Source: a virus. From it: a stretch of DNA of 28,755 nt. Where the stretch lies: positions 1 through 28,755 of IMG/VR virus record IMGVR_UViG_3300027687_000051. The stretch is one strand, 5' to 3'. Shown piece by piece: positions 2,241-17,637 of the stretch (positions are counted from its first letter, which is position 1; each line of letters opens with the position of its first letter). Under the pieces are notes generated by a model that made no database searches, was not told the DNA's origin, and saw nothing but the letters and a program-made list of their open reading frames with translations. The position numbers were made by a program, and so were the translations under genes.

Positions 2241-2277
2241 CCTAGAAAACCCCACTACGTTTGATGGTAGTGAGGTT
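2241..2277 (-). ncRNA. conserved leader hairpin, copy S3
   Basis: Minus-strand reading gives an 11-bp stem, AACCTCACTAC paired with GTAGTGGGGTT and including the constant U-G pair, closed by an 8-nt loop. It is followed by TTCTAGGTA. The inner stem and its 3' flank are nearly identical to S1, but the outer CCTAG strand is missing, so only one tier forms. It begins 6 nt after the stop codon of the 44-residue membrane protein and precedes the 83-residue gene. Confidence 0.65.
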
Positions 2278-2283
2278 ATTTGT

Positions 2284-2418
2284 TTAATGAAATATGTGCA
2301 TCATCATTATAAAGAAGCTGAACATAATAGTGAGGAATATAAGCCACGTAAAGGTCTCTAATGGATTCTTATATACTTGCTTTATCATATCTATGTGAAA
2401 CTTTATAAACTCTTTCAT
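2284..2418 (-). CDS. small membrane protein, 44 aa
   Basis: ATG at 2416-2418 overlaps the stop of the upstream gene (ATGA arrangement), with TAA at 2284-2286. The N-terminal half is amphipathic (MKEFIKFHIDMIKQVYKNPL). The C-terminal half, WLIFLTIMFSFFIMMMHIF (about residues 25-43), is a clear single transmembrane helix. The orientation is probably N-in because of the lysines before the helix. No family is recognised; a host-membrane or superinfection role would be a guess. Coupling with the upstream gene and exact fit into the gap support it as real. Confidence 0.62.
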   Translation of the reverse strand: MKEFIKFHIDMIKQVYKNPLETFTWLIFLTIMFSFFIMMMHIFH

Positions 2419-2714: not shown

Positions 2715-2768
2715 GATTAAGACTAGCATCTCTGCTAGTTTCGGATATTAAATCCTCATCAGTTAATC
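2715..2768 (-). ncRNA. type I hammerhead ribozyme, copy E
   Basis: On the minus strand, 5' to 3': stem I GATTAA (2763-2768), CTGATGA (2756-2762), stem II GGAT/ATCC with a 5-nt loop (2743-2755), GAAA (2739-2742), stem III CTAGCA/TGCTAG with a GAGA loop (2723-2738), triplet GTC (2721-2723), stem I TTAATC (2715-2720). Every position of the standard catalytic core is present. Cleavage is expected between 2721 and 2720. The TAA in stem I at 2763-2765 is the stop codon of the upstream 94-residue gene. Confidence 0.93.
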
Positions 2769-3047
2769 TACATCATCTCCCATATATCTTTGAGTAAAAT
2801 CCCAAGAAAGTTCTTTTACCTTACTATCAAGTCTTTTTAACTTGGTTTCACATATCTTATATTCATTCTTCCATTTCTCACTTTCTTCTTTATAGTAATC
2901 TCTAGATAGTTTCATATCCTCATAGATTTCTAGTATATCTGCAACCACATACTTAATAATGTTATCTGAAGGTTTACCTTCTGTTTTAGCTATTCTTCTA
3001 TTAAGTGCTTGTTGTTCTAGAATTGTTTTTCTTGATTTATCTTCCAT
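2763..3047 (-). CDS. hypothetical coiled-coil protein, 94 aa
   Basis: Highly charged, Lys/Glu-rich and predicted almost entirely helical. The region DILEIYEDMKLSRDYYKEES to KICETKLKRLDSKVKEL (about residues 33-80) has heptad-like spacing consistent with a coiled coil. No enzymatic motif is seen. It follows the 90-residue gene after a 2-nt gap without a ribozyme, so those two form one segment. Its stop codon TAA lies inside stem I of hammerhead E. Confidence 0.68.
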   Translation of the reverse strand: MEDKSRKTILEQQALNRRIAKTEGKPSDNIIKYVVADILEIYEDMKLSRDYYKEESEKWKNEYKICETKLKRLDSKVKELSWDFTQRYMGDDVD

Positions 3048-3049
3048 AG

Positions 3050-3322
3050 TTATTTATTTTTATAATTAATAGTTGTACCATACTCATTAGTTTGAAAATA
3101 ACATTCTCCGTAGTAAAACTCCTTGACAAAATAATCATATAGTTTTTTAATACTATCTATTCTGTTGCGATATTGAGCATCTTGTGTTCTGTAATATATT
3201 TTTACTGGTAAAGGTGTTGTAATCTCTCTTATAACATTACCATCTGCATACCACTCTCTAAATTGGGTATAATAAGCTTTGCCTATTATATCTTGGTCTA
3301 TCTCGTTAAATTCTGTGTTCAT
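3050..3322 (-). CDS. hypothetical protein, 90 aa
   Basis: Begins MNTEFNEIDQDIIGKAYYTQ and is unusually rich in Tyr, Asp and Asn, with a basic stretch in the middle (VKIYYRTQDAQYRNRIDSIK). No signal peptide, membrane segment or known motif is seen. The start lies 18 nt after the predicted cleavage site of hammerhead D, and the gene is followed after 2 nt by the coiled-coil gene. Confidence 0.65.
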   Translation of the reverse strand: MNTEFNEIDQDIIGKAYYTQFREWYADGNVIREITTPLPVKIYYRTQDAQYRNRIDSIKKLYDYFVKEFYYGECYFQTNEYGTTINYKNK

Positions 3323-3334
3323 AATTTATGTATT

Positions 3335-3395
3335 GATTAGGACTATGCTAGTTGCCTAACATAGTTTCGGATATTGAATCCATCATCAGCTAATC
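3335..3395 (-). ncRNA. type I hammerhead ribozyme, copy D
   Basis: On the minus strand: stem I GATTAG (3390-3395), CTGATGA (3383-3389), one extra U (3382), stem II GGAT/ATCC (3369-3381), GAAA (3365-3368), a 9-bp stem III with GCAA tetraloop and one U-G pair (3343-3364), GTC (3341-3343), stem I CTAATC (3335-3340). Cleavage is expected between 3341 and 3340. Stem I changes from the A-U pair of copies C and E to G-C, and this keeps a stop codon (TAG instead of TAA) for the upstream gene. The extra U beside stem II is unusual and may slow or abolish activity. Confidence 0.82.
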
Positions 3396-3791
3396 TTCTT
3401 CTTCTTCCTCTTCTATTTCTACCTCAAAGTATTCACATAGATTCTCTCTATGCACTTCATCATCAATCCATTGGTCTTCTAGTTCCTCAAGGATTTCTTG
3501 GTCAAGATGTAAGATAGCATCTACCTCTATATTGAAATTGTAATTCTCTCCACTTAAGAATTCCCATAACGCTTCATGTAAATCGTAGTCTTCTAGATAT
3601 ACATTCTCTGCAAGATTTAGTCTGTCAGTGTCTTTTAAAATATATAAAGTGTTACCACACGCTGAATCTTCTGAGTGACAATAGTAGTCAGCAGTTGCTG
3701 ACCAATTGTCTTGGATTTTTACGTTTGCATACTCATGTAAGAACTCTTTAAGAGTTATAGTTGCAAACTGAGTTGTTGTAATTTTATTCAT
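3390..3791 (-). CDS. acidic hypothetical protein, 133 aa
   Basis: Strongly acidic protein ending in a poly-Glu/Asp tail (EVEIEEEEEED). The N-terminus is MNKITTTQFATITLKEFLHE. The middle holds YYCHSEDSACGN (about 36-47), which has two cysteines that could bind metal or form a disulfide. The acidic, DNA-mimic-like charge invites comparison with anti-restriction or anti-CRISPR proteins, but this is only a charge argument and no family is recognised. The start lies 25 nt after the predicted cleavage site of hammerhead C, and the TAG stop is part of stem I of hammerhead D. Confidence 0.68.
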   Translation of the reverse strand: MNKITTTQFATITLKEFLHEYANVKIQDNWSATADYYCHSEDSACGNTLYILKDTDRLNLAENVYLEDYDLHEALWEFLSGENYNFNIEVDAILHLDQEILEELEDQWIDDEVHRENLCEYFEVEIEEEEEED

Positions 3792-3810
3792 AATTGATAG
3801 TATTTTATTT

Positions 3811-3864
3811 GATTAAGACTAGTATCTCTACTAGTTTCGCATATTAAATGCTCTTCAGTTAATC
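3811..3864 (-). ncRNA. type I hammerhead ribozyme, copy C
   Basis: On the minus strand: stem I GATTAA (3859-3864), CTGAAGA (3852-3858; position 7 is the variable core base), stem II GCAT/ATGC (3839-3851), GAAA (3835-3838), stem III CTAGTA/TACTAG with a GAGA loop (3819-3834), GTC (3817-3819), stem I TTAATC (3811-3816). Compared with copy E, stem II swaps a G-C for a C-G pair and stem III swaps a C-G for a U-A pair, both compensatory. Cleavage is expected between 3817 and 3816. The UGA of the catalytic core is also the stop codon of the upstream 79-residue gene. Confidence 0.92.
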
Positions 3865-4094
3865 TTGAATTCCCCCAGTGAATTTACTGATGTCAATCCA
3901 TCTTTCATACTTAAGTAATACCCTTTATCTATTAGGTTATTCATTACAGATGCACAACAATCTATAATGTCTATTGTAAATTCTGTCGACCCTAGATTAC
4001 CAACATAACCATTATTTGGTTTATTGATTAGTATTTTAGTAGAGTGATTAATTGATAAGATGGTAATTGCTTTTAAAAATTGTGATTCTTTCAT
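3855..4094 (-). CDS. hypothetical protein, 79 aa
   Basis: Begins MKESQFLKAITILSINHSTK, with an N-terminal helix followed by a short segment NKPNNGYVGNLGSTEFTIDI. It is neutral to slightly basic, with two adjacent cysteines (CC, about residue 53). No family is recognised. Its stop codon TGA (3855-3857) is read from the conserved CUGAAGA core of hammerhead C. Its start lies 26 nt after the predicted cleavage site of hammerhead B. Confidence 0.66.
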   Translation of the reverse strand: MKESQFLKAITILSINHSTKILINKPNNGYVGNLGSTEFTIDIIDCCASVMNNLIDKGYYLSMKDGLTSVNSLGEFKIN

Positions 4095-4114
4095 GATATA
4101 TAATTTAGTTATTA

Positions 4115-4163
4115 AGTTAAGATGCCTCTCGGCATTTCGTCCTTATGGACTCATCAGTTAACT
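4115..4163 (-). ncRNA. type I hammerhead ribozyme, copy B
   Basis: The most compact copy, 49 nt. On the minus strand: stem I AGTTAA (4158-4163), CTGATGA (4151-4157), stem II GTCC/GGAC with a 4-nt loop (4139-4150), GAAA (4135-4138), stem III TGCC/GGCA with a GAGA loop (4123-4134), triplet ATC (4121-4123), stem I TTAACT (4115-4120). The AUC triplet pairs with U after GAAA in place of the usual G with C, another compensatory change. Cleavage is expected between 4121 and 4120. The upstream stop codon lies 3 nt before stem I. Confidence 0.92.
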
Positions 4164-4166
4164 AAC

Positions 4167-4400
4167 TTACCACTCGTTTTTAAAGTAGGTTGTACAATAT
4201 GCATGACCATATCCCTCACCAACTTGACAATTCATATTTGCAGTCATCTCTTTGCAAAACTTTGCATATGTCATACCTTTTAGACTATTCTCTACTCCAG
4301 ATTCTGCATAATTCCTTGCACATTCAAATGCTAACTTCTTGTTTGTGAATACTCCAAGTATCCCATCTTCACTACCTTGTACTACGATTAATTTACTCAT
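4167..4400 (-). CDS. hypothetical protein, 77 aa
   Basis: Begins MSKLIVVQGSEDGILGVFTN, with a beta-strand-like start and a later helix (KKLAFECARNYAESGVENSL). Four cysteines are spread through the chain without a recognisable zinc-binding spacing. The C-terminus is GHAYCTTYFKNEW. The opening pattern is like small phage proteins that carry a KLIVV strand, but I do not recognise the family. The start lies 31 nt after the predicted cleavage site of hammerhead A, and the stop lies just upstream of hammerhead B. Confidence 0.66.
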   Translation of the reverse strand: MSKLIVVQGSEDGILGVFTNKKLAFECARNYAESGVENSLKGMTYAKFCKEMTANMNCQVGEGYGHAYCTTYFKNEW

Positions 4401-4425
4401 AATTGTGTGTGTTATTATTTAGTTA

Positions 4426-4529
4426 TTAAGTGACTATCACTCTGTGATCAAATTATGTCTCTACTCTAGTAGAGGGGCATAAAAAGTGATAGTTTCGTAG
4501 GTGTTTAGACCTTTACTCATCAGACTTAA
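4426..4529 (-). ncRNA. type I hammerhead ribozyme, copy A, with expanded stem III
   Basis: On the minus strand: stem I TTAAGT (4524-4529), CTGATGA (4517-4523), an interrupted stem II GTA/TAC plus GGT/ACC (4497-4516), GAAA (4493-4496), an 8-bp stem III base CTATCACT/AGTGATAG (4434-4441 with 4485-4492), GTC (4432-4434), stem I ACTTAA (4426-4431). Stem III carries an extra domain with its own pairings TTATG/CATAA and CTCTAC/GTAGAG. Cleavage is expected between 4432 and 4431. The TAA stop of the upstream 26-residue reading frame is inside stem I. Confidence 0.87.
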
Positions 4530-4606
4530 CTTTGTAATAATACTACATCATATTCTGATGCGATATCTTTGATTGCTATTAGCAATGCTACGTGTGGATT
4601 CTCCAT
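4526..4606 (-). CDS. very small protein or leader peptide, 26 aa
   Basis: ATG at 4604-4606, TAA at 4526-4528. It reads MENPHVALLIAIKDIASEYD followed by VVLLQS. It is amphipathic-helical in appearance. It is the most promoter-proximal reading frame found in the leftward operon, and its stop lies in stem I of hammerhead A exactly as for downstream genes, which is the best argument that it is translated. The preceding sequence (4622-4642) resembles the leader of the 77-residue gene. A regulatory leader peptide is an alternative to a functional protein. Confidence 0.5.
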   Translation of the reverse strand: MENPHVALLIAIKDIASEYDVVLLQS

Positions 4607-4896: not shown

Positions 4897-4931
4897 ATAG
4901 CAGTAAACATTCTCTCTCTCAAGGATTTAAG

Positions 4932-4943
4932 GTAGTATACTAC
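4932..4943. repeat. 12-bp perfect palindrome GTAGTATACTAC
   Basis: Perfectly self-complementary 12-mer in the non-coding region, a candidate operator or origin element. It shares the core GTATAC with the palindromes at 4771-4778 and 5047-5058. Confidence 0.6.
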
Positions 4944-4948
4944 ACTAG

Positions 4949-5035
4949 CTAACGTTTAAGCTTATGATGTACCGAACAGGGGTTATCCCTTCGGTCTTGA
5001 TGTGGTCATCACCTTGCTAGCTAGCAGTACGTTAG
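4949..5035. other. branched inverted-repeat fold
   Basis: A 7-bp closing stem, CTAACGT (4949-4955) with ACGTTAG (5029-5035), encloses three hairpins. These are ACCGAA/TTCGGT plus GGG/CCC (4971-4995), TGATG/CATCA with TGGT loop (4998-5011), and the palindrome TGCTAGCTAGCA (5015-5026). The nesting resembles a multi-branched structured RNA or a cruciform-forming origin. Function and strand are unknown. Confidence 0.5.
5015..5026. repeat. 12-bp perfect palindrome TGCTAGCTAGCA
   Basis: Perfect dyad inside the branched fold; a candidate protein-binding site or hairpin arm. Confidence 0.55.
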
Positions 5036-5046
5036 GGAGGGGCAGG

Positions 5047-5058
5047 TAGGTATACCTA
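5047..5058. repeat. 12-bp perfect palindrome TAGGTATACCTA
   Basis: Perfect dyad with core GGTATACC, the same 8-mer as at 4771-4778. Two copies of one palindromic core 276 bp apart in a non-coding region suggest paired operator sites. Confidence 0.58.
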
Positions 5059-5250
5059 ATACATAGACATATGTATACCCATCCTATAATAAAAAGTCGG
5101 AACATTTGCAGAAGTTTTTTTGAAATAAGTTATACAACACTATATATATATGACTTTCTTATAGGGGTGCATGCGTGTAGGATGGCACATAACCCTCAGG
5201 TTCATAGTATGTGAAATTTTTTTATTACCTTTACAAAAAAAATAATAGCC

Positions 5251-14967: not shown

Positions 14968-17637
14968 ATGGCAAACATAAATTTTTACGGAGATATAAAT
15001 CTCAAAAATAACCAACTAAAGGAATTTAAGGTTTATAATGTAGCAGGTGGTGGTTCAGGTAATCCAGGAGGTGAGGGTCAGTTAGTATATGACACAACTG
15101 GAAATGTTCTTCAATATCACGTAGGTGGTGGAACATGGGTTACTCTACAAGCTTCTTCTGGTGCAGGAACTGTAACTAGCGTAGGTTTAACAATGCCAGC
15201 TGCATTTACAGTTACAAATTCTCCTATAACAACAGCGGGAACATTAGCGGTAACTGGAGCAGGTACTACATCTCAGTATATAAGAGGAGATGGTACTTTA
15301 GCAACATTCCCAGCAATACCTCAAGGTGATATTACATCTGTATTAGGTGGAGCAGGAATTACAGTAACAAACTCAACAGGGCCTTCGCCTTCAGTTGCGG
15401 TTGATTACTTAGGTTCTGATAATGTTATCTTAGCTTCTGCTAATGGTACTGCAATTGCAGTAGCTGCTGGAGATAGAGTTTTACTTTCAGATACAAGTGA
15501 CAGTGGAAACGCTAAATATGTAAACATTTCTCAATTAACAGCTGCTGTAGGTGGAGGTACAGTGACTTCAGTAAGTGCATCAACAGCTGGAAACGCTTTA
15601 GATGTTGCAGTAACAAACGCTACAACCACTCCTGCTTTAGGATTTACATGGGCTGGAGCAGCATCACAATATGTAGATGGGGCTGGAGATTTAACAACAT
15701 TCCCTACAATACCAAGTGGAGCATTTACAGTAGACGCTCCAAACGGAACTGGTACTATGACAATCTCTTCTGGAGATACATTTGATTTTGATAATTCATT
15801 CTACGGTGGTGTTAATATAGAAAAAGTTCCAGCTTCAGACCAATTATTACTTGGTATGGATATTTCATCTATGATAACAGTAGGTGCAATTTCACCACTT
15901 GATTATATCGCAATACAAGATGCGAGTCAATCAAATAATTCTTATAGAGTATTAGTATCTACATTAACAGGTTCATTAAGTTGGACTTTAGCAGCAGACG
16001 CTGGTTCAAATCAAACGATAACAAACGGAAACACAGCTACTTTTGAAGGTGGTGCAAATGGAATTATATCAACAAATTCTTCAGCAACTGATACATTAAC
16101 CATTACTCACGCATTACAATCTCAATCGGATACTGTAAGTACATTAACACCAGGTTCTGGTGGAACATTTACAGCAATTGATTCTGTTTCAAGAAACGCA
16201 ACTGGTCACGTTACAGCATTAAACACTAAGACTGTAACAATGCCAACATCACCTACTGTATACAGTGGATGGTTATTAACTGGAGATAGTGGTACATCAG
16301 CAAACGTAACGGCTGGTTCAACTGCTACATTCCAAGGAGGAACAGGTATTACTACAAGTTCTAATGGATTTATACTTGATATAGCGAATGATGGTGTTCT
16401 TACCAATGTTGCAGGAACTGGAATAGGCGTAAGTGGAGCAACAGGTAATGTAACAATAAGTAACACAGGTGTTACTTCATTAATAGCTGGATCAAACATA
16501 GGTGTTTCAGCAGCAACTGGAGCGGTAACTGTATCTTACACAGGTGGAACTGGTACAATGTCTTCATTTGTTTTAGCAGGAGACACTGGTTCAAATCAAA
16601 CTATATCTAATGGTAATACATTAAGTATATTAGGTTCTGTAGGAATAGATACTGCTGCAAGTGCAACAGATGATTTAACTATTACTTTAGACTTAAACGA
16701 ATTACCAACAACTGGAACATGGACAGATTCAGCAGATACATTTGCTGTTGTTGACGGAACTGCCAATGCAAGAATAAAATCAACTGATATTGATTTAGGA
16801 AACTTTGGTACTTCAATGAACAATACGGCTGGTACAAGTCAGAAAATAACTAATCTTGCTCCTGGAACCGCAGGAACAGACGGGGTTAACGTAAATCAAT
16901 TAAACGCAGCAGTAATTGGACTTCTAGAATTTAAAGGAGGATTTAATGCAAATACAGGTGCTATTGATGGAGCGGCAACTAATTTAACAGTAGGAGCAGC
17001 GAGGGTTGCAATAGCTGTCGGTGATTTCTACGTATGTACTACCGCTGGTAATTTCTTTGGAAATGCAGCAACACCTTTAACACCTGGTGATCAGGTAATA
17101 GCAACTGAAGCAGCAGTAGCAGGAGCTTCTGTAGAATCTGATTTCGTAATAGTTCAGTCTGATACAGATTTAGCAACTGCAACAACAGTAGGTTTAGCTA
17201 GCTTCCCAACAGCTGGAGGGTTAGTTGTTTCAACTGGTGCAGTAAGCATGGCAACTGTCGGAGGTGCAGGTTCTGTAGGTTCAGCAAGTCAATCTTTATC
17301 AATGACAACAAATGACAAAGGAATTGTTACAGCTAAGTCAGCACAATCAATACAGATTGGAGCTGGTCAAGTAACAAACTTTTGTACTGAAGTTGAAGAC
17401 TGTGTTAACGCTGGATTCTTCTATCAAGTAACATTTGGAAATACATCTGATTTAAATTACACGATTAGTCATGGGTTTAACACAACAGATGTTATGTGTC
17501 AGATATATGAAGTATCTAGTGGGGACACTATATACGCAGAAGTTGAAAGAACATCTGCAACAGCTGTAACGGTTAGAACTAATACTGTTCCTGGAACAAA
17601 CGCCTGGAGAATATTAGTAACAAACGTATCAGCATAA
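14968..17637 (+). CDS. repetitive tail fibre protein, 889 aa
   Basis: A long, Thr/Gly/Ser/Ala-rich protein with almost no charged clusters. It carries repeats such as GTVTSVG and TTAGTLAVTGAGTTSQYIRG near residues 70-110, and TGVTSLIAGSNIGVSAATGA later. Each looks like a beta strand-turn module of a trimeric fibre. The N-terminus MANINFYGDINLKNNQLKEF would attach it to the tail. The last 70 residues contain a domain (FNTTDVMCQIYE and YAEVERTSATAV) resembling the end of the 242-residue protein. The fibre would bind the host surface. It lies 25 nt after the previous gene without a promoter. Confidence 0.85.
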   Translation: MANINFYGDINLKNNQLKEFKVYNVAGGGSGNPGGEGQLVYDTTGNVLQYHVGGGTWVTLQASSGAGTVTSVGLTMPAAFTVTNSPITTAGTLAVTGAGTTSQYIRGDGTLATFPAIPQGDITSVLGGAGITVTNSTGPSPSVAVDYLGSDNVILASANGTAIAVAAGDRVLLSDTSDSGNAKYVNISQLTAAVGGGTVTSVSASTAGNALDVAVTNATTTPALGFTWAGAASQYVDGAGDLTTFPTIPSGAFTVDAPNGTGTMTISSGDTFDFDNSFYGGVNIEKVPASDQLLLGMDISSMITVGAISPLDYIAIQDASQSNNSYRVLVSTLTGSLSWTLAADAGSNQTITNGNTATFEGGANGIISTNSSATDTLTITHALQSQSDTVSTLTPGSGGTFTAIDSVSRNATGHVTALNTKTVTMPTSPTVYSGWLLTGDSGTSANVTAGSTATFQGGTGITTSSNGFILDIANDGVLTNVAGTGIGVSGATGNVTISNTGVTSLIAGSNIGVSAATGAVTVSYTGGTGTMSSFVLAGDTGSNQTISNGNTLSILGSVGIDTAASATDDLTITLDLNELPTTGTWTDSADTFAVVDGTANARIKSTDIDLGNFGTSMNNTAGTSQKITNLAPGTAGTDGVNVNQLNAAVIGLLEFKGGFNANTGAIDGAATNLTVGAARVAIAVGDFYVCTTAGNFFGNAATPLTPGDQVIATEAAVAGASVESDFVIVQSDTDLATATTVGLASFPTAGGLVVSTGAVSMATVGGAGSVGSASQSLSMTTNDKGIVTAKSAQSIQIGAGQVTNFCTEVEDCVNAGFFYQVTFGNTSDLNYTISHGFNTTDVMCQIYEVSSGDTIYAEVERTSATAVTVRTNTVPGTNAWRILVTNVSA

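Follow-up and report, generated by a model that had tools for sequence, protein, structure and literature searches.

Type I hammerhead ribozymes in series at the gene boundaries of an environmental phage operon and their probable role in transcript processing

Clustered hammerhead ribozymes have been described in prophages, where they flank single genes or short blocks of genes (Perreault et al. 2011, PMC3088659). In that study, three tandem arrangements cleaved in vitro and one triple arrangement cleaved in E. coli, the processing of long phage transcripts into single-gene mRNAs was proposed, and 4 of the 18 consensus-conforming hammerheads assayed gave no cleavage (PMC3088659). Another hammerhead, HHphage, immediately precedes a start codon within an early polycistronic unit of haloviruses HF1/HF2, and a halovirus 5′ end was mapped to the cut, within three nucleotides (PMC3088659). 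A 2017 review treated the role of phage hammerheads as an open question (PMC6155905), and a 2023 paper reported that ribozymes cluster near Mu-like phage genes for an unknown reason (PMC10085705).

Here, we analysed a window of 28,755 bases, which is a complete IMG/VR record and carries five hammerheads in one operon. Like the prophage clusters of C. scindens, A. caulinodans and A. tumefaciens (ardA), these are close-set and flank single phage genes, and the same processing was proposed for those clusters, so the statement of the sequence-only reading that a serial array was undescribed has to be withdrawn (PMC3088659). The arrangement detailed there is triple, whereas the window has five elements and a related record up to 14; in addition, one loop and stem subtype recurs here, and stop codons overlap the ribozymes ahead of leaders of fixed length, while the term 'stop codon' is absent from PMC3088659. 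HHphage, in contrast, has a variant core and occurs singly, in archaeal viruses (PMC3088659). Beyond the 2011 work, the sequences analysed here appear to add a recurrent subtype, its invisibility to Rfam, a fixed layout of stop, ribozyme, 24-nt leader and ATG, and single-strand arrays of up to 14. We found no report of the subtype, the stop-codon overlap or arrays of such length in the main text of openly readable journal articles, and some of the elements may already be within published datasets.

The large terminase of the window phage shares 71% identity with that of a podovirus from a spring and 44% with those of Flavobacterium phages, followed by Cellulophaga and other flavobacterial phages, and the hosts are probably Flavobacteria-like bacteria. 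GroEL and a GroES-like protein are both encoded in this one genome (5738-7354 and 24282-24848, plus strand). The leftward operon (4606-2244, minus strand) comprises a 26-codon ORF, the small-protein genes A to G and a terminator, judged by eye, at its end (Table 1). Hammerheads lie ahead of genes A, B, C, D and F, which bears out the serial intercistronic placement read from the sequence, at almost every boundary; the D/E junction (3050/3047) and the F/G junction are without one, and the reading frames there abut or overlap. A scan for sigma-70-type promoters gave scores no higher than those of shuffles, and the flavobacterial-type promoter (TTTG...TANNTTTG) was absent on the minus strand upstream of the operon. 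The region 4900-5080 was considered as a structured element and rejected, as its fold is ordinary (z -1.6). Two near-identical terminator-like hairpins (CCTCACTAC..GTAGTGGGGTTTT) with similar flanks were observed at 2244-2276 and about 590-625 on the minus strand, with different genes preceding each, which suggests duplicated gene-cassette boundaries. Queries for gene C by patterns returned no relatives, and tblastn later found this gene in hammerhead loci.

Table 1. Features of the leftward operon (all on the minus strand), with predicted cleavage sites and scores of covariance model R1
Feature	Positions	Predicted cut	First nucleotide after cut	Leader (nt)	R1 score (bits)	R1 E	Remarks
26-codon ORF	4526..4606						ends in HH1 stem I; putatively coding
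HH1	4425..4530	4432/4431	4431	31			type I, long stem III; 0/500 shuffles comparable; missed by R1
Gene A (77 aa)	4167..4400						L239 homologue 86% identical
HH2	4115..4163	4121/4120	4120	26	36.3	1.6e-7	type I, 4-nt loop II (AUAA)
Gene B (79 aa)	3855..4094						
HH3	3811..3864	3817/3816	3816	25	60.2	5.9e-14	type I, UUAAU loop II
Gene C (133 aa)	3390..3791						hammerhead-flanked also in L340 and relatives
HH4	3335..3395	3341/3340	3340	18	47.2	1.8e-10	type I, UCAAU loop II
Gene D (90 aa)	3050..3322						
Gene E (94 aa)	2763..3047						
HH5	2715..2768	2721/2720	2720	18	63.7	6.9e-15	type I, UUAAU loop II
Gene F (95 aa, counted from ATG after HH5)	2415..2702						
Gene G (44 aa, predicted)	2284..2418						small membrane-like protein; start overlaps stop of F
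Probable intrinsic terminator	2244..2276						CCTCACTAC..GTAGTGGGG TTTTCT; closes unit; read from sequence

A strict grammar (core CUGANGA / GAAA / UH; stem I of at least 4 bp, stems II and III of at least 3 bp each) matched HH2 to HH5, all on the coding strand, while 200 dinucleotide shuffles of the whole window gave one match in total. HH1 was matched under a grammar allowing a long stem III (stem I at least 6, stem II at least 3, stem III at least 7 bp), with no match in 500 shuffles, and these controls rule out chance occurrence. Model R1, trained on 44 hammerheads of other phages and none from the window phage, recovered the same four as the strict grammar, its next-best match in the window scoring 11.7 bits (E 0.65). 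The type I core (C3 U4 G5 A6 N7 G8 A9 / G12 A13 A14 / A15.1-U16.1 / H17) is present in all five, and the layout of closed stems II and III and an open stem I was found by the grammar and R1. The minimum-free-energy folds agree in part: all three stems appear in HH3, HH4 and HH5, stems I, III and part of II in HH1, and the stem I region of HH2 pairs alternatively. These results confirm, by sequence and fold, five genuine type I hammerheads where the sequence-only reading had placed them, and its cut ends and leaders of 18-31 nt were reproduced exactly on recomputation. A core and stems so far beyond chance argue for transcript processing.

The expectation that the Rfam type I model would match all five was not borne out. 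The window elements share with RF00163 (Hammerhead_1) the core, the three stems and the open stem I, but they score under its gathering cut-off or are unscored: only HH2 was matched, with 25.9 bits (E 5.6e-6) against a cut-off of 34 bits, which is a property of that model and not of the fold. The Rfam scan of the window gave no confident match; weak matches to sR52, overlapping the first half of HH4, and to Arrc14 were dismissed as chance. Across 18 loci, Rfam at its cut-offs detected none of 64 elements.

We propose that these type I hammerheads probably cut the leftward polycistronic phage transcript at gene boundaries, giving an mRNA processing that is independent of the host. Each ribozyme would fold on emerging from RNA polymerase and then cleave after C17. 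The upstream message would end in the ribozyme, which keeps stems II and III and carries a 2′,3′-cyclic phosphate, its stop codon lying inside or beside the ribozyme, and the downstream message would begin with a 5′-OH and an A-rich leader of 18-31 nt. The predicted products are a leader fragment, A, B, C, D-E, and F-G plus the terminator. RNase III sites of phage T7 are places where polycistronic mRNA is cut between genes, leaving hairpin 3′ ends. A similar outcome would be reached here without a protein, with cistrons separated, 3′ ends protected by hairpins, and translation and decay unlinked; T7 requires a host protein, whereas the window RNA is predicted to cut itself, and the two are alike in working but not homologous. 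From the observed sequence, structure, placement, conservation and strand bias we infer cleavage in the cell, the end chemistry, stabilisation and uncoupling. Comparable phage arrays that cleave in vitro, one of them in E. coli, also argue for this processing (PMC3088659).

The stop codons of the upstream genes are closely tied to the ribozymes. HH1 includes the UAA (4528-4526) that ends the 26-codon ORF, U4-G5-A6 of the HH3 core is the UGA stop of gene B, stem I of HH4 holds the UAG of gene C and stem I of HH5 the UAA of gene E, while the stop of gene A sits 3 nt upstream of HH2. The same layout recurs in related loci. Among the matches listed, an upstream stop lay within -20 to +12 of C3 at 82% of 399 hammerhead junctions (random positions 12%), an ATG followed the cut at 6-60 nt at 79% (24%), and both occurred at 66% (3%); leaders there had quartiles of 21/24/29 nt and were 51% A. 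The low values of the random-position control show that dense genomes do not by themselves produce the layout, and start-codon rates were low in antisense controls. In 85 of 85 loci with at least two hammerheads, again among the matches listed, all lay on a single strand. Both the stop/cut/ATG layout and these one-strand arrays argue for processing.

Ribosomes terminating within a ribozyme could, however, block its folding. The elements might then be ribosome-gated switches, in which a ribosome ending the upstream gene prevents folding and cutting occurs only under sparse upstream translation, so that cutting would set how much message is joined and how much separate. At four of the five window sites the stop falls in stem I or the core, which fits such gating, as do the commonest stop positions across loci, with UAA of stem I at -3 and UGA of CUGANGA at +1. 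However, UGA belongs to the core and UAA to any UUAA stem, so that for a gene reading into the element some of this overlap is unavoidable; moreover, other stops lie 8-12 nt upstream, and that of HH2 is outside the ribozyme. We consider gating unlikely.

Counted over whole records, copy numbers reach 14 in G009, 9 in G003 and 8 in G007 (contig C748 of a binned genome). The 14 hammerheads of G009 (the record of L233) span 10942-35331 on one strand, across replication and nucleotide-metabolism genes. The DNA polymerase, primase/helicase and ligase of G009 mark it as T7-like, and this resemblance prompts the comparison with T7 RNase III sites. Single members occur in the cultured Flavobacterium phage elemoC, Methylophilales phage MEP301 and Pelagibacter phage HTVC019P. 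In elemoC, whose host is Flavobacterium sp. BAL314, the hammerhead occupies 16952-17009 of NC_062743.1, minus strand. Agrobacterium phage OLIVR1 (L341; cultured, Schitoviridae) carries one hammerhead-like element with a 13-nt stem-loop II at 3960-4009, upstream of a small gene.

HH3, HH4 and HH5 belong to a subtype defined by a UNANU pentaloop combined with A(-7)G(-6) and C(+6)A(+7) at the boundary of stem I, while HH1 and HH2 fall outside it. Pattern scans of IMG/VR returned at least 120 stretches for the UUAA-stem form and at least 120 for a second pattern with stem I free; these patterns select preferentially for type I elements, in which stem III is closed, and the UUAA pattern also for a UAA in stem I, so what is concluded about stops and boundary was rechecked on elements outside the UUAA pattern. 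Hundreds of environmental phages carry the subtype. A complete IMG/VR scan for the N7=A sub-pattern, which makes up 11% of the first sample, found 91 stretches, from which we roughly estimate about 800 stretches with the UUAA-stem form. Among the matches listed, the hammerhead loci, which were fetched with a type I bias, held 359 type I, 16 type III and 2 type II permutations. In the 359 distinct hammerheads among these matches, the boundary around a 6-bp stem I accompanied the UNANU loop (4-bp stem II) in 175 of 177 cases, compared with 64 of 168 without the loop (P 3e-40). The association persisted among the matches listed when UUAA stems were excluded (58/58 vs 27/111), and with one random element per nucleotide-homology cluster (39/41 vs 11/58, P 5e-15) or per protein-homology cluster (16/16 vs 5/35, P 3e-9). 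A tertiary contact between loop II and stem I makes hammerheads fast, and the association looks like a reflection of such a contact, as we infer from the sequences. HH2 is similar to a second class, whose loop has 4 nt and for which the evidence is weaker (P 0.007 after nucleotide-cluster thinning), and HH4 has one additional U between A9 and stem II (position 10.1), a variant seen again in other phages.

In 138 distinct model matches, G5, A6, A9, G12, A13, A14, A15.1 and U16.1 were invariant while the stems vary, which argues for processing; it is supportive of selection on the catalytic core, though not independently, as the matching model rewards the core. The rare core variants were one U4C and one coordinated C3U/G8A, the latter in a hammerhead at L093:144-203. 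It is still less probable than gating that the elements act slowly or not at all as ribozymes and serve as folded 3′ caps or insulators, with messages protected or kept apart by the stem-loops and not by cleavage. At physiological Mg2+, cleavage by minimal hammerheads is slow, and stem I in the window has only six A/T-rich bp, as such caps would allow. Against them stand the invariant catalytic residues amid variable stems, the association of loop II with the stem I boundary, which points to a fast-hammerhead tertiary contact, and the coordinated C3U/G8A change, since C3/G8 covariation is reported as active (PMC3088659).

HH3 and HH5, which are evidently duplicates, differ at 5 of 54 bases, namely the free core position N7 and two complete compensatory pair changes; given four changes in stems, the chance of this paired pattern is about 3e-4. 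Two further compensatory pairs, in stem III, separate HH2 from the equivalent hammerhead that follows gene A in L239. The helices thus covary as expected of type I in both comparisons, in agreement with the compensatory stem variation first read from the sequence, and these differences argue for processing; covariation counts from the 44-sequence alignment arise partly by construction, as its rows were picked by pairing. HH4 is identical at 61 of 61 bases in L122, where sequence nearby is about 91-93% identical, while the homologous junction there is without HH5 and the neighbouring gene ends also differ. In L340, the element after gene C is closer to HH5 than to HH4, and the counterpart of HH1 (G030:20028-20066, 25.5 bits) is intact in its 5′ half and decayed in its 3′ half, apparently a dying ribozyme in a close relative. 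Hammerhead sites are thus gained as well as lost, and with HH5 absent and the counterpart of HH1 degraded among close relatives, no single one is essential. Of the kin of the window phage, G032 has six hammerheads, and G030 and G033 have three each, one per record being weak and partly decayed. MW202828.1, the nearest sequenced phage by terminase (71%), is without such a hammerhead, which shows that the array is not a constant feature of this group. At L239:180-520, AAATTCAACTACAATG is common to the gene A leader and the leader left after the next gene's hammerhead, and a cut end may thus mimic a promoter-derived leader.

The differences in HH5 and the neighbouring gene ends between the window and L122, and the HH5-like element after gene C in L340, would suit DNA-level linker repeats that promote gene-cassette exchange, with the ribozyme fold incidental. 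We regard this as very improbable, because compensatory stem differences, an orientation that tracks transcription in 85 of 85 loci and a free core position that varies are not expected of a DNA site. Same-strand hammerhead pairs could also release unit RNAs able to circularise, yet cleavage followed by re-ligation into circular or spliced RNAs is hardly credible, since such products were sought among those of phage arrays and none was found (PMC3088659).

Against transcript processing itself we count the 4 of 18 non-cleaving hammerheads (PMC3088659), the single sub-cut-off RF00163 match, the alternative pairing of HH2, the possible block to folding by terminating ribosomes, and the absence of HH5 and decay of the HH1 counterpart in close relatives. 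A bolder view, which we hold only tentatively and think rather unlikely as a whole, is that a large, database-invisible type I subfamily would carry out serial, co-directional mRNA processing at most operon gene boundaries in many environmental phages, replacing host RNase processing, with built-in stops making termination and cleavage mutually exclusive, that is, translation-gated. If active, the elements would be short natural parts for splitting operons, and annotation pipelines relying on Rfam cut-offs overlook the subtype. The regular layout at hundreds of junctions sharpens the processing hypothesis and makes it directly testable.
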